The notes under the pieces are model-generated. The model worked only from the letters and a program-made list of their open reading frames with translations, was not told where the DNA came from and searched no databases. The position numbers were made by a program, and so were the translations under genes. Of a DNA stretch of 64,000 nt, positions 10,538 to 55,766 are shown piece by piece; position 1 is the stretch's first letter, and each line of letters opens with the position of its first letter. The DNA is taken from IMG/VR virus record IMGVR_UViG_3300030202_000274, positions 1 to 64,000 of that record, one strand, 5' to 3'. The stretch comes from a virus.

Positions 10538-10738
10538 CTACTTCCTTAATATATACTTTCGCCTTATCTGTCTATCTTTTTCTAATCCCCAAATTTCATG
10601 CTCAGTTCTTTCAAGTTTTGCATCAAAACCATGATGCACCTTACTTGTATTTTTAAACCTGTCTACCAATACATATCGATAAACATAATTATCTTTTTTA
10701 AAATGTAGTACAGGTTTTAATTCTTGTATTTTCTTCAT
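10538..10738 (-). CDS. Small basic protein (66 aa), unit 1
   Basis: A 66-residue Lys/Arg/Tyr-rich protein between the capsid gene and tail tubular A, one base from the latter. Its start lies just downstream of the post-capsid hairpin, so it may be the first gene expressed past that barrier. Family not recognised. Unit 2 has an unrelated-looking 63-residue basic protein in the same slot (45827-46018). Confidence 0.6.
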   Translation of the reverse strand: MKKIQELKPVLHFKKDNYVYRYVLVDRFKNTSKVHHGFDAKLERTEHEIWGLEKDRQIRRKYILRK

Positions 10739-10742
10739 GCAC

Positions 10743-10778
10743 TTTAGGGGGTTTCCACTCTCGCTTTCACCCCCTAAA
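10743..10778. terminator. Post-capsid hairpin, unit 1
   Basis: Perfect 10-bp inverted repeat: TTTAGGGGGT at 10743-10752 and ACCCCCTAAA at 10769-10778, with a 16-base loop, 10 bases past the capsid stop in the leftward direction. No U-tract follows on the minus strand, so it may act as a partial terminator or as an mRNA 3' end stabiliser that raises capsid yield over tail proteins. Confidence 0.7.
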
Positions 10779-14654: not shown

Positions 14655-15076
14655 TATCTACCTAATAAACTTGGTTTACCTAAAGTCAAGCCACCAGTTA
14701 CTCCAGTAACTCCTGTTAGGATTGTTGGTGATCTTCCTCTAGCTTTTGCTTTTCTTTTTCTTATAGTAATATCATCTTCTTTTGGTGTATCTATTTCTGG
14801 TGTAGTTACTTCTGTTTGTGTAACTTGTGAAACTTCTGATGCAGTTGGTGATTGAACAACTTGATTACCACCTCTGTTTTCTCTCATCATTCTTTCGTGT
14901 TCTGCTAAGTTTTGTTGATTTTTAGTTTTAGTTTTATTTTTTTTAATTGGGTTTAAATCTCCTTGATAATCTGTAGCATATCCAGATTCATTAGCTTTTC
15001 TTTTTTTTTCTTCTTCTGAAATAAAAAATCCTGCATCTGCTCCTGTGTTTCCATTCCTTGGTCCAGTAGCACTCAT
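14654..15076 (-). CDS. Hypothetical disordered protein (140 aa), unit 1
   Basis: A 140-residue protein rich in Lys, Asn, Glu and Thr, with a C-terminal RKAKARGRSPTILTGVTGVTGGLTLGKPSLLG. The RGRSPTILTG piece recurs in the neighbour at 15254-15475 (RRGRKSTILTGPLG), which suggests related C-terminal modules. It overlaps the portal start by one base. Function unknown; this slot usually holds small head-completion proteins. Confidence 0.6.
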   Translation of the reverse strand: MSATGPRNGNTGADAGFFISEEEKKRKANESGYATDYQGDLNPIKKNKTKTKNQQNLAEHERMMRENRGGNQVVQSPTASEVSQVTQTEVTTPEIDTPKEDDITIRKRKAKARGRSPTILTGVTGVTGGLTLGKPSLLGR

Positions 15077-15078
15077 AA

Positions 15079-15252
15079 TTATTTTCCGAATGTCAAAGAT
15101 GATTTAGTTTCAGATTTAGTTTCAGATTTAACTTCTCTATTTACTGCTACACCATTTTGTAAATCATTCATGTTATTAAATTTAGGTTCTACTTTTTTCT
15201 TTTTAGTTGCAGGTTTCATTTTTTTAATTGCAGCTTTTACTTTATCCAACAT
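15079..15252 (-). CDS. Small basic protein (57 aa), unit 1
   Basis: Translated by hand from the ATG at 15252 to the TAA at 15079. It begins MLDKVKAAIKKMKPATKKKK and ends SSLTFGK, with a repeated SETKSETK. Two bases separate it from the next gene, and an AGGAGAAT site precedes it. Lysine-rich; function unknown. Confidence 0.6.
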   Translation of the reverse strand: MLDKVKAAIKKMKPATKKKKVEPKFNNMNDLQNGVAVNREVKSETKSETKSSLTFGK

Positions 15253-15253
15253 A

Positions 15254-15475
15254 TTATTCTCCTAACAAAGTTTTAAGTTTATCTTCTTCAGTTTTTTGCA
15301 AACCAAGTGGTCCAGTAAGGATTGTAGACTTTCTACCTCTTCTTCTTCTCTCAATCGCATCTTGTTCTTTTTTAATTTTTTCTTTTTCTTCTGCTGATAG
15401 TTCTGCTTTGGGAGCTTCTGGCAAAGGTTGCACAGGTGGTAGTGGTGGTGTTTTTGGTTTGAATATTGATCCCAT
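15254..15475 (-). CDS. Small protein MGSIFKPK family (73 aa), unit 1
   Basis: A 73-residue protein that starts MGSIFKPKTPPLPP and then forms a charged helix. The unit 2 protein at 50857-51054 starts MGSVFKPKAPPPS and has the same Pro-rich plus Glu/Lys helix design, in the same slot near the terminase/portal boundary. Function unknown; the conservation suggests a real head or packaging accessory. Confidence 0.7.
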   Translation of the reverse strand: MGSIFKPKTPPLPPVQPLPEAPKAELSAEEKEKIKKEQDAIERRRRGRKSTILTGPLGLQKTEEDKLKTLLGE

Positions 15476-15477
15476 AA

Positions 15478-16749
15478 TTATATAATCCTGTAATCATTAT
15501 CTGCTACACTTTGTGGCGCAGTTTGTCTAGTATTAATTTCTTGAAGACCAACTGCAAGGTAGCGCATTGCATCACAAGCGTGTGAACTCCAATCGTGTAC
15601 AGGTTTCGATCTGAACATTCTATTTTTGTCGATGTACTTCCTATGGTAATGTCTTAACGCATCTATTAAGTTTTTGCAATGGTCTGTGTCTATCCAACAT
15701 CTAGGCAACAACATTGATACTGCGTGTATACCTTCTTCTACTGGTAGCTTCGGTACTACCTTAAACCTAACTCCTAACTGATATGCTATCTCTCTTCTGG
15801 TCTTTCCATTGCCAAACTCCTGCACATCAATATCGTGTGGAGCAAAGTGATCTTTGTAGATGTATGGTTTTTCTTCTAGCATCTGGATGTAGTGTGGTAA
15901 TCCATGACCTCGTTCCTCATGGTAATCTATTATCTGTACTCCTGTTCCTTTCTGTTGAAAGAATATAATACTACTGTGGTCTGCGACACCGAGATCCCAT
16001 GCAGTCGAGACAGGCAAAGTGGGATCGTAGGGAACTCTAGCTATCTGGTTCTTATCTTCTATCTTGGCGATCTCTTCTCCGTATATAGCACCTTCTATGT
16101 TTGCTATCCAATCACACTCAAACTCTTGCATATACTTTTTCTCACCCATAACTTCTTTTGCTTTCTCTAATTCTTCTGGGTCTACAATCTTAGTATCACT
16201 TGCTTTAGCTTTGTAGTTAAACCAATCTTCTGCACCATTTGCGTGTTGGTATAGATCATAGAAGTTGTTGTTCATTCCAGCAGGTGTACCAATAAATACA
16301 CAATAACCTTTACGATCTGATAGAGCTGGTCTAATTATTTCTGCAAAAAGTTTACCATCAATATTAGCATATTCATCTATGACACATCCATCTAGGTATA
16401 TACCTCTTAACCCATCTGAGTTTTCTGCTCCAAGTAATGTTATTCTTGAGCCATTAGGTAGATCAACTCTTAGTTCTGTTTCGTTAAACTTAGTGTTTGG
16501 TATTTTTGATGTAAACTGCTTCATGTAATCCCAGGCAATAGACTTTGCTTGTTTGAAGGTTGGTGCAATATATGCAAATCTAGGATTCTTCAACTTGCTC
16601 ATCAATGCTGATCTAATCAAATGATTGATCATACATACTGTTTTGCCAAACCTTCTGTGGCACACGAGAACACTCCATCTGTATCTATTGATCTGTTGAT
16701 GTAAATAAGATTGATGTTTTCTCGGAGTATAAGGGATTTTGATATTCAT
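15478..16749 (-). CDS. terL: Terminase large subunit, unit 1
   Basis: A 423-residue packaging motor. The ATPase has an atypical Walker A, CHRRFGKT at residues 30-37, and Walker B VIDE at 123-126. The nuclease domain has AWDLGVADHSS near residue 250 and a C-terminal acidic site in WSSHACDAMRYLAVG. The type differs from the unit 2 enzyme, which has a classical GPVGSGKS loop. Its small subunit appears to be encoded 3.9 kb away (20704-21180) rather than next door. Confidence 0.93.
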   Translation of the reverse strand: MNIKIPYTPRKHQSYLHQQINRYRWSVLVCHRRFGKTVCMINHLIRSALMSKLKNPRFAYIAPTFKQAKSIAWDYMKQFTSKIPNTKFNETELRVDLPNGSRITLLGAENSDGLRGIYLDGCVIDEYANIDGKLFAEIIRPALSDRKGYCVFIGTPAGMNNNFYDLYQHANGAEDWFNYKAKASDTKIVDPEELEKAKEVMGEKKYMQEFECDWIANIEGAIYGEEIAKIEDKNQIARVPYDPTLPVSTAWDLGVADHSSIIFFQQKGTGVQIIDYHEERGHGLPHYIQMLEEKPYIYKDHFAPHDIDVQEFGNGKTRREIAYQLGVRFKVVPKLPVEEGIHAVSMLLPRCWIDTDHCKNLIDALRHYHRKYIDKNRMFRSKPVHDWSSHACDAMRYLAVGLQEINTRQTAPQSVADNDYRII

Positions 16750-22866: not shown

Positions 22867-23694
22867 TTAAACTCCACACATTCCCTCATCACATAAATGG
22901 CTAAACATATCTAATTGCTTATCATCTTCAGCTTTATTAAACTGTACTTCACTCAAAGGTTTACAAGACCTATGAACAAATATCTCTTCATCTTTTTTTC
23001 TTGTAATACTTCTAACTTTTGAATCAAAATCAACAGCTATTGCAAACTCTTTTGGTCTTTCTGTTTTCATAAAATGCCAGTAAGCATCATTGTGAAATGG
23101 ACATACAATACAAGCTGACTTCTCAGGCATAGGTACATTTTGTTTTTTTAAATAGTTAATACAATCTTGCCTTGACATATTCATTTCAATCAATGGATGT
23201 TTGTTTAAAATATATTTATCTCTAGCAGGTTTCATTCTTTGTACTTCATCAGTTGATATGCCTATCCATTGTTCAACATACTTATCTTTAGGAAAGTGCT
23301 TACCTTTTGCAACACCACAAAGCTCTCTTATTTTTTTTCTTATTTCTTGTATTTTATAAACATTTGTGCATTGACGCATGACCATACCTTTCTTACCAGT
23401 TATTTTATTTTGTGTAAAATATGGTGCATCAACAAAGTTAGTTGTATCTTTTGCAGCTAACATATCTTGCATAATATCCCCTTTAGAAACTACATAAACA
23501 GGATAAGGTAAAATTGATTTTAAATATTTTAAATATTTATTAACTGTTTCTGGCTCATTTTTTGTGTCTGCGAAGATTGCTGCCTGTGGCATGGGTAAAT
23601 CTCCTTTAGCTGCCATTATTGCCATTGTAGAGCTTTGAACTCCTGCTCCTAAACTTATAACTGTTAATGTTTTTTTTCTATCTTTATCAATCAT
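22867..23694 (-). CDS. PAPS-reductase-like PP-loop protein
   Basis: A 275-residue adenine-nucleotide alpha-hydrolase-like protein. The PP-loop variant SLGAGVQSSTMA is at residues ~14-25, PQAAIFADTKNEP follows as in CysH-like enzymes, and a CxxC pair (SACIVCPFH) lies near residue 198 with RQC near residue 108. The true sulfate-reduction signature (ECG..H) is not evident, so the product is probably one of the phage or mobile-element PP-loop enzymes (DndC/CysH relatives) that may modify nucleic acid. Its substrate is unknown. Confidence 0.8.
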   Translation of the reverse strand: MIDKDRKKTLTVISLGAGVQSSTMAIMAAKGDLPMPQAAIFADTKNEPETVNKYLKYLKSILPYPVYVVSKGDIMQDMLAAKDTTNFVDAPYFTQNKITGKKGMVMRQCTNVYKIQEIRKKIRELCGVAKGKHFPKDKYVEQWIGISTDEVQRMKPARDKYILNKHPLIEMNMSRQDCINYLKKQNVPMPEKSACIVCPFHNDAYWHFMKTERPKEFAIAVDFDSKVRSITRKKDEEIFVHRSCKPLSEVQFNKAEDDKQLDMFSHLCDEGMCGV

Positions 23695-42517: not shown

Positions 42518-43017
42518 TAATATTTATCTCCTGGATCATCTGTAAAATATTGACCTCTAGGTTGTCTTCCTTGATATGAGTCAGCATAAGATTTTGTTTT
42601 TAATGCTGATGCTGCTATACTTGCATAAGCTCCAAACTCTTTAGCTTTACCCATAACTTTTGTTGTATATATTTGACTTTCTATTTTAGATTCACCTCTA
42701 AGTGTATTAATTTTTATATTGGTTACATCTTTTGTTGCTATTCTATCTATTTCAGATTGAGTAGATAGAAAACTTCTACTATCATCATTGTAACCAGAAC
42801 CTGCAACTATAGCTAAATTTTGTTTACGTTTTCTTCTAGCTTCTTCTAATACATCATTAGAATCTTGTAATCCTTTTAACTGATTGTATTTTTTTTCTGT
42901 TTCATATTCTTTTATAATAGCTTTGTTAGTTGCTTTTTGAGCTTGTATTTGTGAATAAGTTCCAACTGCTTGTACAACAGTACTAGCAATAGCTAATGTA
43001 ACAGGATCAGCACTCAT
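42517..43017 (-). CDS. Internal virion protein B, gp14-like, unit 2
   Basis: A 166-residue protein with a small-residue N terminus (ADPVTLAIASTVVQAVGTYS), a long helical charged middle and IVAGSGYNDDSRSFLSTQSE resembling the TSGAELSGSG region of the unit 1 protein. A four-base ATGA overlap joins it to the tail tube gene. No gp13-like gene lies between them. Confidence 0.72.
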   Translation of the reverse strand: MSADPVTLAIASTVVQAVGTYSQIQAQKATNKAIIKEYETEKKYNQLKGLQDSNDVLEEARRKRKQNLAIVAGSGYNDDSRSFLSTQSEIDRIATKDVTNIKINTLRGESKIESQIYTTKVMGKAKEFGAYASIAASALKTKSYADSYQGRQPRGQYFTDDPGDKY

Positions 43018-45224
43018 GCAAAAACTACCTCCACACTCATTCCTAATATTTTAATTGGTAACGGATCATCTTGAGATAATGTTACTGTTGGACTTTTGCT
43101 ATAACCTAAAAAGAAAAATTCTTTTTTGTCTGTTACAGGTGTTAAGTCAGAACCACCAGTGAAGTTAACTTGTTGGACTACTAAAGATTTAGAGGTTGTG
43201 TCTGCAGCTTTGACAGTTAAATCTAAAGCAGAATTAATATCAATGATGGCTCTTGAGATTCTTCTTGGTAAACCAGTTAATGGTCCTTCGGGTAATTCTT
43301 TGTCTATTGGCATAGTTTCAATAATAGGTGTATAGTTAAATCCAATTTTTACTCCAGTTCCTCTTGGAGAGTTTAATGTAATAGTATCTGTACCACTAAC
43401 AGTAAACGCACCTAATGAACTATTACCTTCTACTGCATTAACAGACTCATTGGTGTAAATACCATTTACAGAATGAAAATATCCTTTAACAATTGTAACA
43501 ACAGCATTATCTGCTGGAGTTGCTGCTAAGTTTTGATCTAAGTTAAGATCATAAGATCCACCACCATTATTTGTAACAGCTTGTATAGTATATTCAGTAG
43601 AGTTTCCTGCAATAGTAAATGTTTCATTAATTTGTGGATCAGAAGTAAATCCATCTATTTTTACTACAGCTCCAGATTGACTAGCACCCTGTACTAATGG
43701 TGTACCTCTTTGACTTACTGTTGATGTTGTTTGCATATCTAATGTAATACTATCATCATCTCCAAATTTTTCTAGTGTATATACTGTAGATCCATTTAAT
43801 TGTCTTTTAACAATACATACTAAAAATTCATTTAATGTAATTACAGATTGATATAAATCATTTTCTTTAGTTGTCCAAAGTCCCCATCCTGCTATTTTTT
43901 CATCTCTAACAGAATGAAATATAGCCATACTTCCTGGAAGTGTACTTCCGTTATTTAAAAAAAACGCATACTGTTCTGGTCTAGTAAAGTTACCTTTTAT
44001 AATGGCTACTTGTTTTGGATTATCTATTAAATGTTCTGCAAGTATTGATACCGAAGTTGATTTATATCCATCTTCAATATCTGAATAAACAAATTCTCTT
44101 ACAGCTTTACCATTTTTTTGAACAAAACCTGCTGCTTGATCAAACATAACAGGAGCTGTTCTACTAATACCATAAGGTGTTTGTCTTAATACTGATACAT
44201 TTCCAGGAGTAATAGTATTATCATTTGCTCTTGGAATATAATATTCACCACCATCTGTAAATACTTGTAAGTCTTTTCCAGACAACATATGTCTAACTTC
44301 ATTAACTTCTGAACCTGCAATATCTAAATCAATAGCTTCATCTGCTTGACCTGTTCCTACACTAAAATTAAAATACTCAGATATTCTAGAAGCTAATATA
44401 CCAGCAGGTCTAGACTTTAAACCACCTAACCATAGTCTGTTATTATGAAAAGTTACTGCTTGTGGAAATCCTCTTTTGGTAGATATAGATTGTTCTGCCC
44501 AATCAAAATGTGGACCAGCACTACCCATGTCTTCAATAATAGTAATAGTAACTTCTGTAGCAGAAGTAAAACCAGTTATCTTACCTTGTTTTTTATTTAT
44601 TTCTATATAATCCCCAACTTGATTACTTGTAAAAGCATCAGCACTTGCAGTTACAGTTCTACCTGTTCCTGTTGCATGAGAAGATAAACTTACACTAATA
44701 GAACTAGAAGCATATTTATAAAATGGTCTAGTTGTTTTATTAACACCACTTACAGTTACTGAATCATCATCATCAAATGCAAATACTGATACTGTAAACG
44801 AAGTTGCAGATTCTCTAAATAATCTTCTTGTTTCATTATCTCTATGTGTAATAAAAATAGTATCGCCAAATTGAGCAAAGTTTAATTCAAATAGTTGAGC
44901 TGTAGTCCAATTGCAATTAGTTGTATAGTTAGATACTATTGCACTACCATTAATATTATAAACATCCATTCTTTGATTAGATAAAACAATAATAGCTATT
45001 TCATCATCAGAAAATACAAATGGAATTAATCTAGACTCAGCAGGTAATGTTGCTAAATATGTAGTTCCTGGTCTTCTCATAAGACCACCTTCTGCTAATA
45101 ATGCAAAGTTTCTACATTGTTTAGCTCCATTTGAATAAGCAGGTGTATCTATTCTGGTAGCTAATAATGGATTAAGCTCTCCAGAAGAAAAATTGGTTAA
45201 TACAGTTTTTAATGTTCTTGCCAT
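43014..45224 (-). CDS. Tail tubular protein B (nozzle), unit 2
   Basis: A 736-residue nozzle protein opening ARTLKTVLTNFSSGELNPLL and LMRRPGTTYLATLP, the same landmarks as unit 1. It contains an extra ~50-residue beta segment after residue 500. Beta-rich. One-base overlap with tail tubular A. Confidence 0.9.
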   Translation of the reverse strand: MARTLKTVLTNFSSGELNPLLATRIDTPAYSNGAKQCRNFALLAEGGLMRRPGTTYLATLPAESRLIPFVFSDDEIAIIVLSNQRMDVYNINGSAIVSNYTTNCNWTTAQLFELNFAQFGDTIFITHRDNETRRLFRESATSFTVSVFAFDDDDSVTVSGVNKTTRPFYKYASSSISVSLSSHATGTGRTVTASADAFTSNQVGDYIEINKKQGKITGFTSATEVTITIIEDMGSAGPHFDWAEQSISTKRGFPQAVTFHNNRLWLGGLKSRPAGILASRISEYFNFSVGTGQADEAIDLDIAGSEVNEVRHMLSGKDLQVFTDGGEYYIPRANDNTITPGNVSVLRQTPYGISRTAPVMFDQAAGFVQKNGKAVREFVYSDIEDGYKSTSVSILAEHLIDNPKQVAIIKGNFTRPEQYAFFLNNGSTLPGSMAIFHSVRDEKIAGWGLWTTKENDLYQSVITLNEFLVCIVKRQLNGSTVYTLEKFGDDDSITLDMQTTSTVSQRGTPLVQGASQSGAVVKIDGFTSDPQINETFTIAGNSTEYTIQAVTNNGGGSYDLNLDQNLAATPADNAVVTIVKGYFHSVNGIYTNESVNAVEGNSSLGAFTVSGTDTITLNSPRGTGVKIGFNYTPIIETMPIDKELPEGPLTGLPRRISRAIIDINSALDLTVKAADTTSKSLVVQQVNFTGGSDLTPVTDKKEFFFLGYSKSPTVTLSQDDPLPIKILGMSVEVVFA

Positions 45225-45823
45225 TATACATCAGTTCTCGTAGAGTTTCTTAAATTAATAAATCTAGAAGTATCTAGTTTTCTAGTAGTTACTTCTGCTG
45301 TATCTATATTTTTAGATATTAAAAATTGTCTATCAGACATTTGTTTAAATTGATTAATCATACCTGCATCTCTAGCAACTGAACCTGCAAATAAAGAAGC
45401 AAGTTCATATTCTAAAGCTAATCTAAAATGAGCTGGAAAATAATCTTCTTCTACTCTGTAAATATAATCCAATACTAAATTATGATTTGCACCATAAGTA
45501 TTAACATAAATCATATTCTTATATCTTGTATAAGGAATAATATAATCGTTAACTGTTAATGTATTAATTTGTAGTACTCCAGGATCAGCAGGTAACTGAT
45601 AAGCATATTCATATCTTCCTACTGGAGCTGTAGATAATAGTGATAATGTTTTTTGATTAGTTGCAAACTTCCATCTATGTCTAGTTAGACAAGCTTGTAC
45701 AATGTCTTCATAAACATTAGAAGCAACTAAAGCTTCTGTAGATCCATCCTCAAAGGAAGATATAGGTTGTGCGCCTATCATTACTAAAGCTCTTGCACAT
45801 ATATCTACTTTTGATGTTGCCAT
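45224..45823 (-). CDS. Tail tubular protein A, unit 2
   Basis: A 199-residue protein beginning ATSKVDICARALVMIGAQPI, with RHRWKFATNQKTLSLL and AYQLPADPGVLQINTL. The adaptor between portal and nozzle. Confidence 0.9.
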   Translation of the reverse strand: MATSKVDICARALVMIGAQPISSFEDGSTEALVASNVYEDIVQACLTRHRWKFATNQKTLSLLSTAPVGRYEYAYQLPADPGVLQINTLTVNDYIIPYTRYKNMIYVNTYGANHNLVLDYIYRVEEDYFPAHFRLALEYELASLFAGSVARDAGMINQFKQMSDRQFLISKNIDTAEVTTRKLDTSRFINLRNSTRTDV

Positions 45824-45826
45824 TTA

Positions 45827-46018
45827 TTATTTTTTAAAATTTTTATTTCCTCTTAAAATTTTTAATTCAATATCGTTCATAGCTTTAATTTCTTTATTAG
45901 TAGCTTTTGCATTTCCTAAAGTTACCATATTTCTTAATCCATAAGTTTGAACAATTGCTGCATCTTTTGCATCAGAATAAAAATTTTTTAAAATATTATT
46001 TTTATTTTTTTTAGTCAT
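45827..46018 (-). CDS. Small basic protein (63 aa), unit 2
   Basis: Lys/Asn-rich; contains FYSDAKDAAIVQTYGLRNMV. Located between the head and tail-tube genes, as 10538-10738 in unit 1. Not recognised. Confidence 0.55.
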   Translation of the reverse strand: MTKKNKNNILKNFYSDAKDAAIVQTYGLRNMVTLGNAKATNKEIKAMNDIELKILRGNKNFKK

Positions 46019-46049
46019 TATATTTCCTTATTTTAATTTATAAAATTGA

Positions 46050-46067
46050 GGGCGAAATTAATCGCCC
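46050..46067. terminator. Post-head-gene hairpin, unit 2
   Basis: GGGCGA (46050-46055), loop AATTAA, TCGCCC (46062-46067), 20 bases beyond the stop of the 83-residue gene. On the minus strand a TCAATTTTATAAATTAAAAT tract follows, weakly terminator-like. It parallels the post-capsid hairpin of unit 1. Confidence 0.6.
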
Positions 46068-46086
46068 CCAAAATATCTTTAAACGA

Positions 46087-46338
46087 TTATGATCCGTTTA
46101 CGACAGTTACTGTAGCAGCACCTGTTGCAGAAGACACTACAAGAATGTCTACTGTTTGAGTACCACCATTTGAACCAACGCAAAGAATAATATCATTTTC
46201 TTTTAAGTTCTCAGTTGCTGAGTTGAAGTAACCAGAAGCAGCTATTGTAGCAATAGCATCTCCATCTGTATAAAAGAATACAGAGTTACCACCAGCTTCA
46301 GCAATCTTTTTGATTGGGTTTGCAGTTTCGTAAGCCAT
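46087..46338 (-). CDS. Possible head-decoration protein (83 aa), unit 2
   Basis: A small beta-rich protein (GNSVFFYTDGDAIATIAASG, DIILCVGSNGGTQTVDILVV) directly after the capsid gene with a 9-base gap. The location and size fit head-fibre or decoration proteins. Not present in unit 1. Confidence 0.55.
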   Translation of the reverse strand: MAYETANPIKKIAEAGGNSVFFYTDGDAIATIAASGYFNSATENLKENDIILCVGSNGGTQTVDILVVSSATGAATVTVVNGS

Positions 46339-46347
46339 ATATTCTCC

Positions 46348-47178
46348 TTATTCAGCACATTTTTGAACTCTAATACCATCAGTATCAATTAATGTACCGC
46401 CTATGCTTAGCATAGAAGTAATTAAATGAGAAACTTTTTCTGGTATGTAGTTCACTTCAGTTTTAACATCAGAACCAACTCCTAAGCCTAATGATGATTT
46501 GTGGAAAGCCACAGTATGTCTATCAGTAGAACCAGAAGTTTCTAGTCCACTGTGTACAAACCATAAGAATCCTAACCATCTTTTAGCAGTCATTCCTCCA
46601 GCATATGGAAGCTCACCTTCGCCTACATATTCAACTCTAGAGAATTGATCTAGGTTAATTAGGTCAGACCATTGTTTTGGTCCTACTACCCAATATCTTT
46701 GTTGGTCATCTGGTACATCATTAGTATTGAAAAGTTCCATCATAGCTTGAGCTTTTCCTAAGTTCATTCCAGTACCTGTTCCAGATGAGTTGTTTGCAAG
46801 AGTTGTAGCACCATTCATAATCCCAGTTAATACACTGTCAGTTTTTCTACCTAAAGCGTATGCTGCAGATTGTGCAACTACTTGTCTTTCGTCAATGTTT
46901 ACCTTTAACTCGTCTAGCTTGTCAACGTAATCAGCTGCATAGTAATCAGTTAAAGTTGCTGACACATTGCTGTGTGATAGATCCATTGCAACTACTTCAG
47001 CATGTCTTGCTTTAGTGTTTGCAGAACCTTTTGCAACTTTCTGAAACTTAACAGTGTTACCATTAACGCCATTCACAGTTCTTACTAAGTTCTTTAACTT
47101 AGAACCCATTCTTTGATAAGCCATGTGAACTTCTGCTTCAAACTGAGTAATAAAGGCATTTGTTATTGATGTTGCCAT
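46348..47178 (-). CDS. Major capsid protein, unit 2
   Basis: A 276-residue protein with ITNAFITQFEAEVHMAYQRM and VNGVNGNTVKFQKVAKGSAN segments, and the spine helix QSAAYALGRKTDSVLTGIM. Same gene order as unit 1's capsid but only distantly similar. Its 150-bp upstream gap has paired direct repeats. Confidence 0.85.
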   Translation of the reverse strand: MATSITNAFITQFEAEVHMAYQRMGSKLKNLVRTVNGVNGNTVKFQKVAKGSANTKARHAEVVAMDLSHSNVSATLTDYYAADYVDKLDELKVNIDERQVVAQSAAYALGRKTDSVLTGIMNGATTLANNSSGTGTGMNLGKAQAMMELFNTNDVPDDQQRYWVVGPKQWSDLINLDQFSRVEYVGEGELPYAGGMTAKRWLGFLWFVHSGLETSGSTDRHTVAFHKSSLGLGVGSDVKTEVNYIPEKVSHLITSMLSIGGTLIDTDGIRVQKCAE

Positions 47179-47208
47179 TTTATTGTCCTTTGTTTGTTGT
47201 TAAGTTAC

Positions 47209-47256
47209 GTTTGTTATCCGATTATCTTACAAATGCAGTGGTTTGTTATCCAATTA
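47209..47256. promoter_or_regulatory. Paired 16-bp direct repeats upstream of capsid gene
   Basis: GTTTGTTATCCGATTA (47209-47224) and GTTTGTTATCCAATTA (47241-47256) differ at one base and are spaced 32 bp, about three helical turns. They lie in the 150-bp gap before the capsid ATG. On the coding (minus) strand they read with GGATAACAAAC. An AT-rich TAAGATAAT box lies between. Likely regulatory. Confidence 0.6.
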
Positions 47257-47328
47257 AGGGCAAACATTAAACATTTTTAAGGTCTTGATATAGAAATAGA
47301 TTTGTTTAATTGTTTAAACAACGCACAA

Positions 47329-47592
47329 TTACATCCATATTTTAGGAATAGTAATTACTTCTCCAAACTCTATATTACCTTTTTTGTCATAAGAATATGT
47401 ACCAAATAATGTAATATATTTTTTGGTTTCTTTGTATATCCACATTTGACTAGATACAGCTTTAGCTGGTTCATGATCATCCATATCGGATTTATTAATC
47501 CAACCTGTTTCACTAACTGCATCTAGCCAATGCAAATCTTTTTTAAGTTTTTTATACTTAAATTTATTTTTTTGTTTCGTATGCTTTTTCAT
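47329..47592 (-). CDS. Hypothetical protein (87 aa), unit 2
   Basis: An 87-residue protein with a basic N terminus and a beta-rich segment (SSQMWIYKETKKYITLFGTY). It overlaps the end of the scaffold gene by 29 bases. Function unknown. Confidence 0.55.
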   Translation of the reverse strand: MKKHTKQKNKFKYKKLKKDLHWLDAVSETGWINKSDMDDHEPAKAVSSQMWIYKETKKYITLFGTYSYDKKGNIEFGEVITIPKIWM

Positions 47593-48310
47593 ACAGTTCT
47601 GTTACACGTTTAATATAAGCATCATCCCTTTTATTAGAATCATAATATCTAGGATCATTCATCATAGATTTAAGATCTGCAAAATCTGGAGTAACAGATA
47701 CTTGTGTAGGTGTAGTAGGCATAGGACTATCTTTAGTCATTTTCATTATTTCTTCTATTGCTTTTACACCTTCAGCTGTTGATGCTATACTTGAAAAAGT
47801 ATTGTAAGCTTCTGGTGATAAGTTTTTCTTAGACCAAAGCTCTGCAGCTTCAACTCTTTCTTTTGAGTTGTCACCTAACTTTTGCATTTCAGCATTAACA
47901 TCTGGTAAAGTTGCCATTGCATTATCAATAAATACTTTAACACCTTCATCAAATTGTTCTTGAGATAAACCATTTTGTTTAGCTGTTTCTTTCCACCATT
48001 GTACTATTTCCATATCATCTGATACAGATACATCTACATTTTCTGGAAGTTCTGGAACATTAACTTTATATTCTTCTGGTACTTTACCAAGTCTTTCTTG
48101 TTCTAAATCTTGTCTAACTTGTTTAGACAGATCTTCTGTTCTTGAGCCTAATTTTTTTTCAAGAGCATTATAACTAGAAGCTAAGTTTTCTAAATTAACT
48201 TCTTTTCTATCAGCATCCCAAAATTTATCTTGTACATATTCTGGTTTATCACTGACAGTTTGTTCTTGCGTTTCTGTGGTGATTGGTGCTGTTGCATTAT
48301 CATCTACCAT
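47564..48310 (-). CDS. Capsid scaffolding protein, unit 2
   Basis: A 248-residue acidic, helical protein with VPEEYKVNVPELPENVDVSV near residue 75, WWKETAKQNGLSQEQFDEGV downstream, and a C-terminal basic helix. It fits the T7-like scaffold in its place before the capsid. Confidence 0.82.
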   Translation of the reverse strand: MVDDNATAPITTETQEQTVSDKPEYVQDKFWDADRKEVNLENLASSYNALEKKLGSRTEDLSKQVRQDLEQERLGKVPEEYKVNVPELPENVDVSVSDDMEIVQWWKETAKQNGLSQEQFDEGVKVFIDNAMATLPDVNAEMQKLGDNSKERVEAAELWSKKNLSPEAYNTFSSIASTAEGVKAIEEIMKMTKDSPMPTTPTQVSVTPDFADLKSMMNDPRYYDSNKRDDAYIKRVTELYEKAYETKK

Positions 48311-48581
48311 CTTGTTCTCCTTTTTTTATTCTTGTTTGTATTACAGCTGTTAGGAATCTCATTCCTTCTAAATGAAATAATCCATTGCTATCTATATTAG
48401 GACCAGCAACTGCTTCAGTTGTAATTGATTTAATATACTCAAGAATTTTTTTTCCATCATCATTCTTAAATACACCTGCAAATAATTTATTAAGATTACG
48501 TTCTTCTTCTTCTGTTCTTACGTAACCATCAATAGATTTTGCAGGAATTGGTCTTTTTTCTTTAAGTCCATCCCAACTCAT
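48300..48581 (-). CDS. Small protein (93 aa) between portal and scaffold, unit 2
   Basis: Shares its slot with 12789-13025 and probably its C-terminal motif (G-MRFLTAVIQT). It contains DGKKILEYIKSITTEAVAG. Role unknown. Confidence 0.65.
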   Translation of the reverse strand: MSWDGLKEKRPIPAKSIDGYVRTEEEERNLNKLFAGVFKNDDGKKILEYIKSITTEAVAGPNIDSNGLFHLEGMRFLTAVIQTRIKKGEQDGR

Positions 48582-50131
48582 TATTGTGGTATTTCTCCTT
48601 CTTTCGGTGCAGTTTGTAACTGACTAATCTGTTGGACTATTTGTCTTTGTTCTTCTTCATCACGAATAAGTTTTTCAGGCAAATTCATTTTTTGTGCTAG
48701 ATACTTAGCAGTTTCATTTTGATTAACAATAACATTAATCATTTGTGGGCCAAATGTACCTGCAATAATTTCATTAAATCTATTTATATCAGAAACATCT
48801 TGCATATGTTGTGCTTTAGCTAATGGAGATCTAGCAGCAATCTTTACTTCTCTACCATTAACTTTAGGTAGTTCTATTCTACCTTGTTTAGATAATAATC
48901 TAATAATTCTTTTTAATAACGGATGTATAAATTCAGATTGTAGTCTTCCAAAAGAAGAACCTATTTGTCTTGATAGATCTGCCATTCTTTCAGAAACTTC
49001 TGTTGCTGTCATTGGAGTTCCTTCTGGTCTTCCAAGAGCTTCCATGTATAAAGCTTTTTTAATATTCTGCCTCATGTCTTGTAATACTAACTGAGCTACA
49101 TCAAAATTAGATGCAGACTGTATAGCACTTAATCCTCTTGATCCTGGAGCTACTGGTATTAAAGATCCAGGTACTAATGCAATATTGTCTGGATTAATTA
49201 CACCATCATCTTCATAAGTATAAACTCCAGATACTGACATCTGTGCATTTTGTAATATTAGCTCAACAGTTAAGTTACAAGTTTTAATTGCCCCCATAGC
49301 ATTAAATACTGGCCCTCTACCATAAACTTCACCAGATGCTTTATTCCATCTAAATACTAAATATGGATTAGATCCTTCTCCAGAATATTCTTCTTCAAAT
49401 ATAACTGCTTTAGGATTTTCTAATACAACACAATATTTATATTTTTCTTCATTGTCTTGATGTATTTTATATACAGCTTCTATAATTGTTAATTCTTTTT
49501 TTTGTTGTAACAAATCAAAATTTTCTGGCATTACAGCTTTAGGATATAAAACTTTAACGTGTTCTGGTTTTACTTTTCTAGTTCTATAGACTGTATCAAT
49601 CTTTCCGTCTGGGCCATTTAATAAACATACTTTAGGTAATGGTACAGCTGTAAATTTAACAGGATTAACAGCATCACCTTCTTCTACTAACATACATCCA
49701 GTACCAACAGCTAGATCCATAAATGCTTCATGTACTTCTTGATTAAAGTTTGAGTTTTGTAATACTTCAAAAACGTATTCAGTAATTTTATCTAACTGTA
49801 AATTAACTTGTGATTTTTGTTCTTCTGGTATTTCAACACCTGCTTGAAAATCTGCCCATCTTGCAAATGTAGGTACGATACCAGATTGTAATCTTGATGC
49901 AAATTCTTGTACACCAACTACAGCAGTTTCATCAAAAATCTTATCAGTTCTTTTTTGTCCTGGTGATTCTTCATAAAAAGATTCTCTATTAGGTAAACAA
50001 TACTCATAGGCTTCTTCAAATTTTTCTCTCCAATGATCTTTTACAGATACAGCTTCTTTGTATTTTTCTAAGATACCTGCTGCTTTGTCTGATGTATTTA
50101 TTATTGGTGTATCGTCTATTGTGTAATCCAT
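48581..50131 (-). CDS. Portal (head-tail connector) protein, unit 2
   Basis: A 516-residue protein with the T7-family portal landmarks: DHWREKFEEAYEYCLPNRES, EFASRLQSGIVPTFARWADF, PYLVFRWNKASGEVYGRGPV and MTATEVSERMADLSRQIGSS. Homologous to 13029-14654 but without the long Gln-rich tail. Confidence 0.93.
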   Translation of the reverse strand: MDYTIDDTPIINTSDKAAGILEKYKEAVSVKDHWREKFEEAYEYCLPNRESFYEESPGQKRTDKIFDETAVVGVQEFASRLQSGIVPTFARWADFQAGVEIPEEQKSQVNLQLDKITEYVFEVLQNSNFNQEVHEAFMDLAVGTGCMLVEEGDAVNPVKFTAVPLPKVCLLNGPDGKIDTVYRTRKVKPEHVKVLYPKAVMPENFDLLQQKKELTIIEAVYKIHQDNEEKYKYCVVLENPKAVIFEEEYSGEGSNPYLVFRWNKASGEVYGRGPVFNAMGAIKTCNLTVELILQNAQMSVSGVYTYEDDGVINPDNIALVPGSLIPVAPGSRGLSAIQSASNFDVAQLVLQDMRQNIKKALYMEALGRPEGTPMTATEVSERMADLSRQIGSSFGRLQSEFIHPLLKRIIRLLSKQGRIELPKVNGREVKIAARSPLAKAQHMQDVSDINRFNEIIAGTFGPQMINVIVNQNETAKYLAQKMNLPEKLIRDEEEQRQIVQQISQLQTAPKEGEIPQ

Positions 50132-50211
50132 TATTTTTTACTCCACTTATTTTTAAGTTCTACAATAAAAACTTTTATTTTAAAAATAATTTTATTTATA
50201 TATTTCATCAT
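50131..50211 (-). CDS. Amphipathic micro-protein (26 aa)
   Basis: ATGA overlap with the upstream stop and TAATG overlap with the portal start. MMKYINKIIFKIKVFIVELK then NKWSKK: hydrophobic/basic amphipathic helix. Coupled on both sides; tentative because of its size. Confidence 0.45.
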   Translation of the reverse strand: MMKYINKIIFKIKVFIVELKNKWSKK

Positions 50212-50582
50212 CTAAATCTTTTAGTTTTCGCTGCGATACTTTTAGGTTGTTTAACGAATTGTTTTCCTTTTTTATTTCCACGTGCTTTAGCTGCGTTAGT
50301 TGCTGACTTTTCTTTAGCCGTAAGAGCTTTCCAAGCTTTCTTAGGTAAATATCTTCGTTTGCCTTCTGATTTTTTACCACTGCTTGTTTGCCATTTTTGT
50401 TTACCCCATTTGGTAAGTTTGTTTGATGAAGACTTAGATCCTCTATAGCCTCCACCTGCTTTTTTATAAATCTTGACAGCAAGTTGCATAGCCCTAGCAC
50501 TGTGTTTTCCTCCCATTCTTGCTTTGGCTTGAGCTTTAGCTCTTGCCCATAAAGCAGGTTTAGTTTTCTTTGCAGTAGCCAT
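50208..50582 (-). CDS. DUF5872-like basic protein (124 aa)
   Basis: KPALWARAKAQAKARMGGKH, SARAMQLAVKIYKKAGGGYR, then LTKWGKQKWQTSSGKKSEGK and RRYLPKKAWKALTAKEKSAT. The W-QTS-GKK motif and KRYLP are distinctive. I assign DUF5872 from memory. Very basic, perhaps DNA-associated inside the head. Confidence 0.65.
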   Translation of the reverse strand: MATAKKTKPALWARAKAQAKARMGGKHSARAMQLAVKIYKKAGGGYRGSKSSSNKLTKWGKQKWQTSSGKKSEGKRRYLPKKAWKALTAKEKSATNAAKARGNKKGKQFVKQPKSIAAKTKRFR

Positions 50583-50857
50583 TAAGCTTTCTTCTTATGC
50601 CTATTTGCAAAGTTTCTTGCAGCAGCTACACTACCGAAACCCCAAGCTTTTAATGCTAAAGCTTTTCTTGTAGGTCTGCCTTTACTATCTTTCATTGGTC
50701 CTTTCATTCCTGCAAACCTTGCAGCGAATGATACTCTACGAGGATTAGTTCCTTTTTTAACAGGAGCTTTTAAGTTTGCACCTTCTTTACGTTTAAAGAA
50801 AGCTCTACCTCTAGCATTAAGTCCCCCTTTTGGATTTTGATAAACTTTAGCTACCAT
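50582..50857 (-). CDS. DUF6321-like basic protein, unit 2
   Basis: A 91-residue protein with NPKGGLNARGRAFFKRKEGA and NLKAPVKKGTNPRRVSFAAR, then KGPMKDSKGRPTRKALALKA. Homologue of 27494-27745 but relocated from the lysis to the head block. Its C terminus (AARNFANRHKKKA) differs. Confidence 0.72.
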   Translation of the reverse strand: MVAKVYQNPKGGLNARGRAFFKRKEGANLKAPVKKGTNPRRVSFAARFAGMKGPMKDSKGRPTRKALALKAWGFGSVAAARNFANRHKKKA

Positions 50858-51054
50858 TATCCAAAGAAACCTCTGCCACCTGCTTGACTAAATAAAGATC
50901 TAGTACCAATAACTCCTCTAGCAACTTTTTTTTCATAAATATCTTGTTCTTTTTTTATTTCTTTAGCTCGTATTTCTTCTTGCTTTCTTGCTTCTTCAAT
51001 TGCAGGATCTGCTTTTGATGGTGGTGGTGCTTTTGGTTTAAATACTGAACCCAT
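50857..51054 (-). CDS. Small protein MGSVFKPK family (65 aa), unit 2
   Basis: MGSVFKPKAPPPSKADPAIE followed by a charged helix and GTRSLFSQAGGRGFFG. Same opening as 15254-15475 of unit 1. TAATG overlaps on both sides. Confidence 0.7.
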   Translation of the reverse strand: MGSVFKPKAPPPSKADPAIEEARKQEEIRAKEIKKEQDIYEKKVARGVIGTRSLFSQAGGRGFFG

Positions 51055-51212
51055 TATAACTCCTCATCATCCATATCATCAAAATCATAAGAAGTTAACG
51101 AACCCATATTAGCTTCCATTTCTCTTAAAAGATCATCTTCTTGATCATGAAGATCTCTCATCTCGTCAATGATTTCTTGTACAGATTTTTGTTTTTTTTT
51201 AATTTTTGACAT
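51054..51212 (-). CDS. Small acidic protein (52 aa)
   Basis: Hand-translated: MSKIKKKQKSVQEIIDEMRD, then LHDQEDDLLREMEANMGSL and an Asp-rich end. Short coiled coil with an acidic tail. It overlaps the 141-residue gene by 14 bases. Function unknown. Confidence 0.55.
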   Translation of the reverse strand: MSKIKKKQKSVQEIIDEMRDLHDQEDDLLREMEANMGSLTSYDFDDMDDEEL

Positions 51213-51624
51213 TTGGATCCTTAATTTTTTGATTAAATGACTTATATCCTGCTTTTATCAACGCACAATAAAGCTGATAAGGAGTAAGGATATACCATTT
51301 ATAAAATCCTATTAAACGCATTATAAATGAAACACAGGTCATATCTTTAATTCTAAAGAGCTGCCATTGTTCTTTTTCTGGACATCTTAATACTTCATAG
51401 TCTTTCAAATAGAATAACATATCTTCAAGTTCTTCTGGAGATAGTAAACTATGTTTTATTCCTGCATGAGTGTATTCTAAATGAATCCATACATTTTTTT
51501 CTGGATCAAAGTTTAAAGCACCACAATGTTTAAAACCTTTTTTTAAAAACTGTAACCATTCTGGATAAGGATATTCATCTGCTTCATAAAAATATACTAA
51601 CCATTCCTTTTGAATATGTCCCAT
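51199..51624 (-). CDS. Hypothetical protein (141 aa), possible cysteine-peptidase-like fold
   Basis: A 141-residue protein with HCGALNFDPEKNVWIHLEYT and a hydrophobic TCVSFIMRLIGFYKWYILTP YQLYCAL segment (spans two quotes). The Cys and aromatic-rich helix followed by TPYQLY recalls permuted NlpC/P60-like families, a guess only. It overlaps the large terminase by 28 bases. Confidence 0.5.
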   Translation of the reverse strand: MGHIQKEWLVYFYEADEYPYPEWLQFLKKGFKHCGALNFDPEKNVWIHLEYTHAGIKHSLLSPEELEDMLFYLKDYEVLRCPEKEQWQLFRIKDMTCVSFIMRLIGFYKWYILTPYQLYCALIKAGYKSFNQKIKDPNVKN

Positions 51625-53129
51625 ACTTTCCTTTTGGTTACACCTGGTTTAGAAAATACATCCCATTGTTTCTTAGCAACAGTTGGTTGTGTTTGTATTT
51701 TACCAGACATCATTGTTCTACCTTCACCAGCTCCCATCATCAAATATTGTAAAGCATCATGAACGTGAGAGTATCTATTCTTTAAAGGTTTTTCATCATA
51801 TCTATCTCCAGACACTTGAAGTCTTCTATAATGATAGCCACCATTAAAACCTTTTTTTAAATTTATACATTCTGTACTCATAGTAAATCCTGGTGATCCA
51901 TCTATTAATCTTGATAGTGTAGAATCAACAGCTTCTATTCTTAATGCAACATCATTAGATGGTGCAGGAATAGCTTTTAATCCATAATTTCTCATTATTT
52001 GAAATGGAGTTCTTTCATCTGTTTGTGATCTAAAATCTCCAGCAGGATCTCCATAGATCATAACTTCATATCCTTTGTATAATTTTGCTATTTCTCCTCT
52101 CAGTAATTCTGAGAATCTAATTACACCCATATCAAAACAAACAAGCTCATTTAATATATTCCATTTACCTGTAGTAGTTCTTTGACCAAAGACTGCAGCA
52201 GGAGTTAATCCAAAGTCAACTCCAATCCATATTGGTTGTCCAGGTATTAAATCTATTTTTTCTTTTGTTATATGTAATTCATCTTTGAAACTGTGATATA
52301 CAGGTTTACCTTCTTCAATAGATCCTAGTTTATTTAAAACATAAACATCTATCCATCCTTTTGTTTTACCTCTAATAATATTTTCATAATATTTTTCGGT
52401 TAGGTTTTTTTTATTTTCTGATTTTTTGTTATCTTCATAACCAGTTATTAATCCATCAGATCCTTTGTTTTCTAGCAAAGCAGGGGGTTGGGTATAAAAA
52501 CTCCAGTTGTCTGGTTTGATTAACATTAAAGCTTCTTCTCTAGAGATGTGGTCTGGTACAGGTACATCTGCTGCCATGATTGGCCACCAGTGATCTTCTT
52601 CTGGTGCGTTGGTATCAGCTATAACTCCATACCAACTAGCTCCACCTTCTCTCATACTAGGAAATCTTCCTACCCTCATAGTACAAGCATCTATGATTGA
52701 TTTGGGTATTTCTCTTGCTTCATTAACCCAAACACCAGTCAATTCTAATGATAGTAATTTCTTAACATCTTCTGGTCTATCAAGAGCTAAGAAGATAACT
52801 TCTACATCAAGTTCACCAACTAAGATTCTATGAGTATAAGGAACACTCCAAGCAAAGTTACCCCAAGTATCTTCTGGAAACCAATCTAACCATGTTTTGA
52901 TTGTTGTAGTTCTAAGCTGTGGATTTGTATTTCTAATTACAGCCCATCTAGATTTTCTTTTACCTTCTGCATTTTTCTGTTGTAATAAAGCTCGTCTAAA
53001 TATTTCAATACAACAAGCAACTGACTTACCAGAACCTACTGGCCCACGCAGTCCTCTAAAGAAGTCGTCAGACTTCATAAATTTTTTTAGAGTATCGCCT
53101 TCTGGTTTGTATTTAAAATTAATCGACAT
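51597..53129 (-). CDS. terL: Terminase large subunit, unit 2
   Basis: A 510-residue motor. Walker A GPVGSGKS at residues 29-36, a WVNEAREIP Walker B near residue 135, the nuclease start WIGVDFGLTPAA near 300 and a GDPAGDFR acidic site. The type differs from the unit 1 enzyme. Its small subunit is at 54170-54544. Confidence 0.93.
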   Translation of the reverse strand: MSINFKYKPEGDTLKKFMKSDDFFRGLRGPVGSGKSVACCIEIFRRALLQQKNAEGKRKSRWAVIRNTNPQLRTTTIKTWLDWFPEDTWGNFAWSVPYTHRILVGELDVEVIFLALDRPEDVKKLLSLELTGVWVNEAREIPKSIIDACTMRVGRFPSMREGGASWYGVIADTNAPEEDHWWPIMAADVPVPDHISREEALMLIKPDNWSFYTQPPALLENKGSDGLITGYEDNKKSENKKNLTEKYYENIIRGKTKGWIDVYVLNKLGSIEEGKPVYHSFKDELHITKEKIDLIPGQPIWIGVDFGLTPAAVFGQRTTTGKWNILNELVCFDMGVIRFSELLRGEIAKLYKGYEVMIYGDPAGDFRSQTDERTPFQIMRNYGLKAIPAPSNDVALRIEAVDSTLSRLIDGSPGFTMSTECINLKKGFNGGYHYRRLQVSGDRYDEKPLKNRYSHVHDALQYLMMGAGEGRTMMSGKIQTQPTVAKKQWDVFSKPGVTKRKVWDIFKRNG

Positions 53130-54169: not shown

Positions 54170-54544
54170 TCACGTTAGATCTATATTAATCTTAATATCC
54201 CCCTGTATATTGTGAGATACCTTATCTGGTGTTCTCAATCCTACTCTATCGAGAATATCTCTACTAGCTTCTAGTTGAACATATTCACTCCTCGCCCCTG
54301 TGGATAGCTCGATAAGTCTTTTACTCGCACTTACTGCGCCAAGTCCAAGAGTTTGTGCAATACGTTGTTGCATATACTGTTGTACCTTTGGTAAACGTAG
54401 TGTGCGAGAAGCACTTACTCTCGCTGAATCTTTGCTAACTTCTGTTGAATATCCTGCCTTTTTAGCAGCTTCTGTTATACTACACCCAGTAGCTACGATT
54501 GTATCTACTAGGTTTCGTTGTTTCTCTGTTAGATCGTCTTTCAT
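54170..54544 (-). CDS. terS: Terminase small subunit, unit 2
   Basis: A 124-residue protein with LTEKQRNLVDTIVATGCSIT, EAAKKAGYSTEVSKDSARVS and ASRTLRLPKVQQYMQQRIAQ. This is the Terminase_2-type small subunit (HTH, then a helical oligomerisation segment). A different family from the unit 1 protein. First gene of the late block. Confidence 0.85.
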   Translation of the reverse strand: MKDDLTEKQRNLVDTIVATGCSITEAAKKAGYSTEVSKDSARVSASRTLRLPKVQQYMQQRIAQTLGLGAVSASKRLIELSTGARSEYVQLEASRDILDRVGLRTPDKVSHNIQGDIKINIDLT

Positions 54545-54571
54545 AACGCTTATTTATTCTACCCTTAACTG

Positions 54572-54600
54572 TTCGTAGTTATTTTAATTGTCACTGTCAA
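54572..54600 (-). promoter_or_regulatory. Possible late promoter (weak -10), unit 2
   Basis: Minus strand TTGACA (54600-54595) is a perfect -35; at 17 bases the -10 would be TACGAA (54577-54572), only three of six matches. The -35 and position ahead of terS are the sole support. Confidence 0.35.
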
Positions 54601-54706
54601 GAGAAATAACAGGACTTTAGTGGTATTGGAAACTCACATAACTATATCTTGTATGGCGACTTACAGGCTCTAGTTCGCTTTGCTCACCCAAGCCCTTCGG
54701 TCTTGT

Positions 54707-54984
54707 CCCTAAAGGGTAACGATCCTGGTCGCATTGATCAATCCTCTGGATTGCTCTGAAGGAGTTGCCAAAGGCAACGCTTACAACCCCATACGCAATT
54801 TTCTAAAGAAACCGTTCGCTGTTGCTCACTATTGCTATGGGTCCCCCCCACACACGTGGATTAATGTGCTTGTATCATGAGTTTGCCTTAATGAACAGTG
54901 CAAGGGACATCAGCGCCTCACCTAAAGGTGATTCCCCTTCGGGTGCGCTGTGTCGCACTGTGTCATTAAGCTTTGCCTCATGAT
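54707..54984 (+). ncRNA. Candidate large structured RNA
   Basis: Within about 280 bases at least nine helices can be drawn. Local hairpins: CCC-TAAA-GGG (54707-54716), CAATCC-TCT-GGATTG (54739-54753), GTTGCC-AAA-GGCAAC (54764-54778), TTTC-TAAA-GAAA (54800-54811), TCACC-TAAA-GGTGA (54918-54931), CCC-TTC-GGG (54935-54943). Enclosing stems: CCCATA/TATGGG plus GCAAT/ATTGC (54788-54799 with 54831-54841), CAGCGC/GCGCTG extended by GACA/TGTC (54906-54916 with 54945-54954), CAGTGC/GCACTG (54896-54901 with 54955-54960), TTAATGA/TCATTAA (54888-54894 with 54963-54969), ATCATG/CATGAT (54874-54879 with 54979-54984). The nesting from 54874 to 54984 is complete. UUCG and C(UAAA)G loops suggest the plus strand. 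Confidence 0.6.
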
Positions 54985-55053
54985 GACTGCACACCTTAAC
55001 CACATGCGTTATGCCATGTCGGTTATAAAGTAAACGATAACAGAAAGGTTACA

Positions 55054-55224
55054 ATGGAGTACGTTAAATACTATGAGTTGATAACAGATGAACACGATAA
55101 GAAAAGAGTTGTTGAGTTATCAATGTTAAGAGAAGAAGCTATAGTGAAAGCTGACTATGATAAAGTTAGTGAATTAGATAGCGAAATAAATAATATAACT
55201 AAAGGAGTTAGATATGATGGGTAG
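55054..55224 (+). CDS. Small coiled-coil protein (56 aa), first early gene unit 2
   Basis: Hand-translated: MEYVKYYELITDEHDKKRVV, then ELSMLREEAIVKADYDKVSE and a short tail. AGAAAGG precedes it. Its stop overlaps the next gene by 11 bases. Charged, helical; unknown. Confidence 0.6.
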   Translation: MEYVKYYELITDEHDKKRVVELSMLREEAIVKADYDKVSELDSEINNITKGVRYDG

Positions 55225-55708
55225 TGAATTAAATCAACAAGATTATTCAGATAGTAGATTAGATGATATGCAAGATGTATTAGATTGTGTTGATATGAAA
55301 GCTGGTGTTACTGGCTTTTTCAATACAGTTATATCACCATTTGCTGATCATCCAGACTGGTCTATGTTAGCTGAATGGAACGCTAATAGTATTATTGGTG
55401 TATTCCAAAGACATCATGAGCAATGTATCAAAAGTCTAGATAAGACAAAAGATCTTATGCAGACTGCGTTACGAGAAGATGTTGGTAATGAGATTACTAA
55501 GCTAAATGTTGACAAGTTAATATTTAGACGTGATGCTCAAGAAGTTAATATCAAAAGAGCTAAGTCTATATTGAATGAGTTTCTTCTATGTTATGAAACT
55601 ACCTTTGGTAAGAAGTTTATGCCTCAAAGCAAAGCTCCTGTTAAAGATGTTACTAAACAGATGAAAGAATACAATATGACTAGACTAAAAGAAGCTCTAG
55701 GTAAGTAA
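55214..55708 (+). CDS. Hypothetical early protein (164 aa)
   Basis: A 164-residue acidic protein (QDVLDCVDMKAGVTGFFNTV, DWSMLAEWNANSIIGVFQRH) with a helical C terminus. ATGATG start after AAGGAG. A terminator follows directly. Function unknown; being first and separately terminated suggests strong early expression. Confidence 0.65.
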   Translation: MMGSELNQQDYSDSRLDDMQDVLDCVDMKAGVTGFFNTVISPFADHPDWSMLAEWNANSIIGVFQRHHEQCIKSLDKTKDLMQTALREDVGNEITKLNVDKLIFRRDAQEVNIKRAKSILNEFLLCYETTFGKKFMPQSKAPVKDVTKQMKEYNMTRLKEALGK

Positions 55709-55722
55709 TAATAAACAATCAA

Positions 55723-55758
55723 ACCCGGTACTCTTAACAGGGTACTGGGTTTTTTTTA
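55723..55758 (+). terminator. Intrinsic terminator / attenuator
   Basis: ACCCGGTAC (55723-55731) pairs with GTACTGGGT (55742-55750) with one G-U pair, 10-base loop, followed by a T8 run. Standard rightward terminator. Because more rightward genes follow, it probably separates or attenuates the first two early genes. Confidence 0.85.
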
Positions 55759-55766
55759 TCGTTACA

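Follow-up and report, generated by a model that had tools for sequence, protein, structure and literature searches.

Evidence for a large folded RNA beside the packaging genes of a group of marine phages

What is the role of a noncoding gap of 509 bases (54545–55053) that separates the gene of the terminase small subunit (TerS) on the minus strand from two small divergent genes on the plus strand? The gap lies in the window analysed here, that is the whole stretch of 64,000 nt, and the initial annotation had described in it, at positions 54707–54984, an ornate structured RNA or DNA element within a G+C-rich noncoding stretch. The stretch is indeed G+C-rich (0.48 vs about 0.30–0.35 genome-wide), ORFs confined to it have at most 53 aa, and the GC skew flips its sign at the element. 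The two divergent genes are without a family match (Pfam and PHROG for 55054–55224); directly after the second one a hairpin followed by a T run (55723–55760, plus strand) resembles an intrinsic terminator. The TerL of the phage shares 66% identity with the TerL of Pelagibacter phage EXVC031P Hodr, and the phage has HNH genes in addition to TerS and TerL. A scan of the 64,000 nt detected neither tRNA nor tmRNA.

Portal, TerL and tail genes each occur twice in the whole record of 66.6 kb (among others at 13029–16749 and 43014–53129), and a separate 37-kb record matches it, in the parts compared, only from about 31.8 kb onward. Thus, the record is probably composed of two phages joined in assembly. 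The element is found at 100% in the separate 37-kb record and is thereby confirmed outside the joined one. Two observations concern the first phage part: a gene similar to phosphoadenosine phosphosulfate reductase (22867–23694, PHROG 424) is a possible auxiliary metabolic gene, and the inter-ORF gap at 10601–10750 has a folding z of about −5 for either strand (20 shuffles).

When compared with dinucleotide shuffles, the region 54650–55053 folds with z −4.6 on the plus and −5.5 on the minus strand and the inner domain 54870–54990 with z −5.6 and −7.8, respectively, and in both cases no shuffle was as good as the observed sequence. With DNA folding parameters z is −6.3, again with no shuffle reaching the observed energy. 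The non-crossing hairpins and enclosing stems that had been described are thus present beyond chance. The element spans 54656–55009 and consists of domain A, domain B, two hairpins and domain C (Table 1); the limits originally given are therefore too narrow, as structured parts extend to 54656 with a weak outer stem beyond. The same holds for the inner domain: it had been placed at 54874–54984, and it is a helix stack closed on a two-hairpin junction as described, with basal helices reaching 54847 and 55009. TTTGCC had rightly been read in either strand of the symmetric internal loop, which corresponds to GGCAAA on the minus strand.

Table 1. Features of the element and of its surroundings (positions in the window)
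Feature	Position	Strand	Basis
Terminase small subunit (TerS)	54170–54544	-	PHROG 51, E 2.5e-14
Promoter-like TTGACA-17-TACGAA of the TerS operon, conserved, between the RNA and TerS	54572–54600	-	homologue comparison
Putative outer stem P0, 3′ strand (UGUGAGUU)	54631–54638	-	minimum-energy and centroid folds
Domain C, multibranch element closed by GCGAC...GTCGC, with conserved AGGATCGTTACCC and GGCTTGGGTG	54656–54732	-	22 distinct homologues aligned
Local hairpin around CAATCC-AGA-GGATTG	54736–54755	-	sequence, repeat I6, folds
Local hairpin GTTGCC-TTT-GGCAAC	54764–54778	-	sequence, repeat I5, folds
Domain B, branched stem CCCATA...GTATGGG	54787–54841	-	folds, homologues
Domain A (form 1), branched hairpin of ~163 nt with stacked helices, symmetric GGCAAA/GGCAAA internal loop and apical two-hairpin junction	54847–55009	-	z −7.8; covariation; covariance model
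GGCAAA, symmetric internal loop, 3′ side	54882–54887	-	(nearly) invariant in 25 homologues
GGCAAA, symmetric internal loop, 5′ side	54972–54977	-	(nearly) invariant in 25 homologues
Divergent small gene, 56 aa, abutted or overlapped antisense by the RNA at its start	55054–55224	+	syntenic conservation
Putative outer stem P0, 5′ strand, opposite codons of the divergent gene	55072–55079	-	minimum-energy and centroid folds
Candidate RNA promoter TTGATA-18-TATCGT, inside the divergent gene	55094–55123	-	weak consensus match
Second divergent gene, 164 aa, marker of synteny	55214–55708	+	syntenic conservation

In relatives the closing stem of domain B encloses about 55, 83–90 or 180–193 nt. The small hairpins of domain C vary in sequence with their pairing kept (by inspection of 22 distinct homologues), and the consensus fold of this domain is weak (E −8.1). 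Inclusion of the outer flanks (54600–55088) weakens z to −3.4, so that support for the outer flank falls short of that for the core. In the window's clade the P0 duplex has an energy of −23.3 with its own and of −22.9 with foreign partners; as this control revealed no excess, P0 is in this clade suggestive only. The element is not among the top-ranked windows of a folding scan with 150-nt windows, because these cut domain A. The lowest z of that scan (−7.2 on the minus strand, 20 shuffles) belongs to 47401–47550, in or near the gap between the ORFs 46348–47178 and 47564–48310.

By TerL and TerS searches of IMG/VR together with pattern scans more than 200 loci were gathered. The gap folds on the minus strand with z ≤ −2.9 in all 22 sampled homologues, and z is below −3 in each of the 33 representatives whose domain A is recognisable (mean −8.0). 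Five gaps with z near 0 (L007, L042, L053, L059, L072) were excluded since TerS is cut by the contig end and a wrong stretch had been extracted, as judged from their abnormal lengths. Domain A occurs in two main forms which are poorly alignable with each other and were each aligned separately; the window has form 1. The proportion of paired cells is 88.8% for form 1 (A2, 25 sequences including the window) and 93.9% for form 2 (A1, 15 sequences), percentages which are inflated as the counted structures were derived from the same sequences. Stronger evidence comes from the pairs changed on both sides, 27 of 55 in form 1 and 23 of 46 in form 2, which are non-independent events because the homologues are related, and from the slid controls: the covariation score amounts to 0.253 in form 1 (0.110 shuffled, at most 0.102 with partners slid) and to 0.352 in form 2 (0.152 and at most 0.092, respectively). 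The unpaired letters of junctions and loops are conserved in the homologues while the helices covary.

A covariance model of form 2 (R1) recovers loci that were not used for training (L107, L014, L045, L095, L249, L256 and L257, E 5e-16 to 1e-11) and also the more diverged loci L062, L064 and L058 (E 1e-8 to 9e-5), almost always on the TerS-sense strand with one low-scoring exception on the opposite strand. With the model R2, whose training set includes the window, domain A is the sole match in the window. Among the loci that the patterns of domains A, B and C yielded, every verified one is followed by a TerS of the same orientation, preceded by the divergent genes, or flanked by both where the contig is long enough. 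Four candidates were rejected as chance matches, L221 and L246 being GC-rich and unrelated with filamentous-phage-like ORFs (ORFs read only) and L193 and L205 lacking a model match. Similar DNA was not found in sequenced phages, nor the form-1 motif in a pattern scan of bacterial and archaeal genomes. Neither of the two refuting outcomes named in the initial annotation has thus occurred, as the stability exceeds that of dinucleotide shuffles on both strands and compensatory changes are found in the homologous gaps. Since many related phages keep the fold while changing and even swapping the sequence, our results support the view that the stretch of ~450 bases beside the packaging genes is a large folded RNA outside the catalogued families.

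The z-score by itself does not tell the strand; for this the paired energy difference and the G-U test are needed. The shuffle-corrected difference of the folding energies, minus strand less plus strand, favours the minus strand in 29 of the 33 domain-A representatives (Wilcoxon p 2e-6). In structures predicted with Watson–Crick pairs only, 59 columns with G-U pairs are opposed to 36 with A-C pairs, summed over the domains. Two alignments of the Hodr clade contain 39 vs 13 and 25 vs 6 such cells, an excess that is favoured by the prediction of these structures on the minus strand with G-U allowed. The energy test with all 54 Hodr-type gaps is not significant (33 of 54 favour the minus strand, p 0.13). 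Judged from these sequence statistics, the RNA strand is most likely the minus strand, that is the sense of TerS. A cruciform would show no strand preference, and the choice that had been left between structured RNA and DNA element therefore leans to the RNA side.

The domains are not inherited as one block. The locus L192 has a TerS and a divergent gene which are both 94% identical to those of the window and similar domains B (84%) and C (92%), and its domain A is just 21% identical. In L003 domain A is 98% identical to that of the window, domain B 55% and the small hairpins 23%, and L037 and L201 are alike save for domain A (87% against 22%). These contrasting identities indicate that the domains are exchanged as cassettes, independently of the neighbouring genes, whose identity remains at 90% or more. 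By inspection, L058 and L062 carry the GGAGU/GGAUU internal loop of form 2 with its two sides exchanged, and forms 1 and 2 differ in the junction position of the CUUG linker ahead of a GC-capped hairpin. We read these predicted folds as an internal loop that recurs reversed and a three-way junction that is permuted.

The cultured isolate Hodr has at the equivalent place (L206:2505–2834) one giant hairpin with z −10.9. Its 5′ arm takes in the ribosome-binding site, the start codon and ~70 nt of the divergent coding sequence, and in six close relatives 27 of 103 pairs are changed on both sides. Neither Hodr nor the most distant relatives are recovered by covariance models built on the clade of the window. 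For this reason the likeness rests on position and shape, and the hairpin is a diverged counterpart by these two features with homology unproven. The outer pairing into the divergent gene is firm in the Hodr clade, and the outer stem of the window's clade may be a reduced form of this arrangement. In the GenBank record of Hodr (L206:1–11461) the locus tags are those of another phage (EXVC032PBaldr), and both terminase genes, TerS and TerL, are labelled hypothetical.

Where would such an RNA begin and end? Almost every homologue has TTGACA at a distance of 43–65 nt ahead of TerS. As this near-universal box is situated downstream of the RNA, a separate promoter for TerS is probable, which would speak against a simple leader of TerS. 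The −10-like element of this site (54572–54577) reads TACGAA, TACGTA or TACGTT in most close relatives and not TATAAT, with TTGACA being near-invariant, and Hodr has a good −10 (TATACT); the site is perhaps an activator-dependent late promoter. Between domain C and this promoter the homologues share conserved TAGTATTGTGAGTTT...CACTAAAGTG (54605–54645), which may be an operator or the RNA's 3′ end. At the other side, the candidate promoter within the divergent gene would start the RNA near 55088. In the window scan this consensus match shows no excess over shuffles; in the homologues the promoter-like scores on the minus strand peak 71–85 nt upstream of domain A, within the divergent gene, where 45% of the scores exceed 5, compared with 6–24% at other offsets. 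We regard this start as suggestive.

Conserved fold, compensatory change, fixed position and cassette exchange being established, we suggest that the element encodes a stand-alone minus-strand RNA which acts in trans on a protein of the host or the phage, as its scaffold or decoy, a reading that we hold with about even confidence for and against. Transcription would run in the sense of TerS from a promoter that probably lies within the first part of the divergent early gene, and would stop ahead of the TerS promoter. An outer stem would hold the independent domains A, B and C, which are made of recurring internal loops and junctions, and as protein-binding modules these could be swapped by recombination with the surrounding genes left unchanged. 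The start and end of transcription, the action in trans and the protein partner are what we infer; the action in trans as scaffold or decoy is suggested by the presence of several independent domains, the conserved loops within variable helices, the place outside the TerS transcript and the module exchange beside constant neighbours.

The first of the rival explanations in our ranking is a function in cis, as antisense RNA or early/late switch: the RNA, driven by its own promoter, would cover the divergent early gene at its ribosome-binding site and start and would lower its expression as late transcription begins, with the outer stem determining how much of the antisense arm is free. The element reaches up to or into the start of this gene, the promoter-like scores peak inside it, and the hairpin of the Hodr clade includes the translation start with compensatory changes. 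However, the arm that would act as antisense is occupied by a helix of the RNA itself, not all relatives have the same divergent gene, and domains B and C would be superfluous, so that we consider this reading unlikely. Next in rank is a leader of the late operon, in which transcription would run through the RNA into TerS and the structure would control processing or elongation, the latter by processive antitermination as with HK022 put RNA or EAR. This agrees with the verified loci, in all of which the packaging and structural operon follows the element immediately on the same strand, and an intrinsic terminator is not seen between the RNA and TerS. Nevertheless, the conserved promoter-like site intervenes before TerS in nearly all homologues, Hodr included, and the element is well beyond known put sites in size and variability; we therefore rate a leader as quite improbable.

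Inverted repeats at the boundary of early and late genes could also function as DNA, for example, as replication origin, packaging site or cruciform. The change of the GC skew, the excess of folding with DNA parameters and the adjacent TerS would fit, but the minus strand is favoured where a cruciform gives no asymmetry, junction and loop letters are conserved next to covarying helices, and the forms are swapped beside a nearly identical TerS, unlike a pac site recognised by TerS. A DNA element, ranked behind the leader, has thus little probability. Least probable by far is an RNA of the plus strand, with the element as the folded 5′ UTR of the divergent early operon: plus-strand folding exceeds shuffles and two UUCG loops lie on this strand, yet the strand tests favour the minus strand and a scan of the early-gene side found no consistent plus-strand promoter upstream of the element.

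SAR11 bacteria are among the most abundant bacteria of the ocean, and their phages are correspondingly common. If the element is an RNA, a whole phage clade spends 350–650 nt out of roughly 35 kb of genome on a molecule that is absent from every RNA catalogue tested here, and its exchangeable, permuted modules would offer a natural series on the reuse of RNA junctions. More speculatively, and with considerable doubt on our side, the elements might form a new modular class of viral RNAs of marine podoviruses in which cassettes are traded and loops and junctions are reused in reversed or permuted form, and their rapid turnover might stem from an arms race with a host factor, the RNA being a device of counter-defence or host takeover.

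The element had been likened to the large phage and marine ncRNAs. At the gathering threshold no Rfam 15 family matches the window or its homologues (cmscan), nor does one match 12 homologues at an E-value threshold; covariance-model matches in Rfam to GOLLD, ROOL, IMES and other marine RNAs, phi29-type pRNA and 6S RNA are absent. The likeness to GOLLD and ROOL is therefore one of kind only. Full-text searches of open-licence papers found no description of such a pelagiphage RNA, and the word terminase does not occur in the main text of the 2010 metagenome RNA survey (PMC2864571). GOLLD combines a conserved with a variable part and forms a homo-oligomeric cage, and GOLLD and ROOL are 600–800+ nt long and often located near tRNA islands (PMC12286853). 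Like the element, both are large ornate phage-encoded RNAs of unknown function; the element differs in being smaller, in its constant place upstream of TerS and in the exchange of its domains as cassettes, and the tRNA-island proximity of ROOL is not shared by the window.

Other known RNAs resemble the element in single respects. The pRNA of phi29 is a junction-bearing phage RNA tied to packaging whose structure is kept while its sequence drifts, and in its junctions, its fold under sequence drift and its nearness to packaging functions the element is comparable; it differs in having no Rfam match, in belonging to a phage with TerS, TerL and HNH genes, and in the swapping of its forms beside an almost constant TerS. 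6S RNA and adenovirus VA RNA are long irregular hairpins of ~160 nt which act as decoys of host proteins. Domain A is a similar hairpin, whereas the element as a whole has multiple domains and matches neither in Rfam. With HK022 put and EAR it has in common that a structured RNA precedes a phage operon or a long one; known put sites are far smaller and less variable, and a putative promoter sits between the element and the operon. Finally, natural rearrangements within structured RNAs are reported in an earlier study (PMC10085705), and compared with the motifs covered there, the loop and the junction of the element are rearranged among the members of one syntenic locus.
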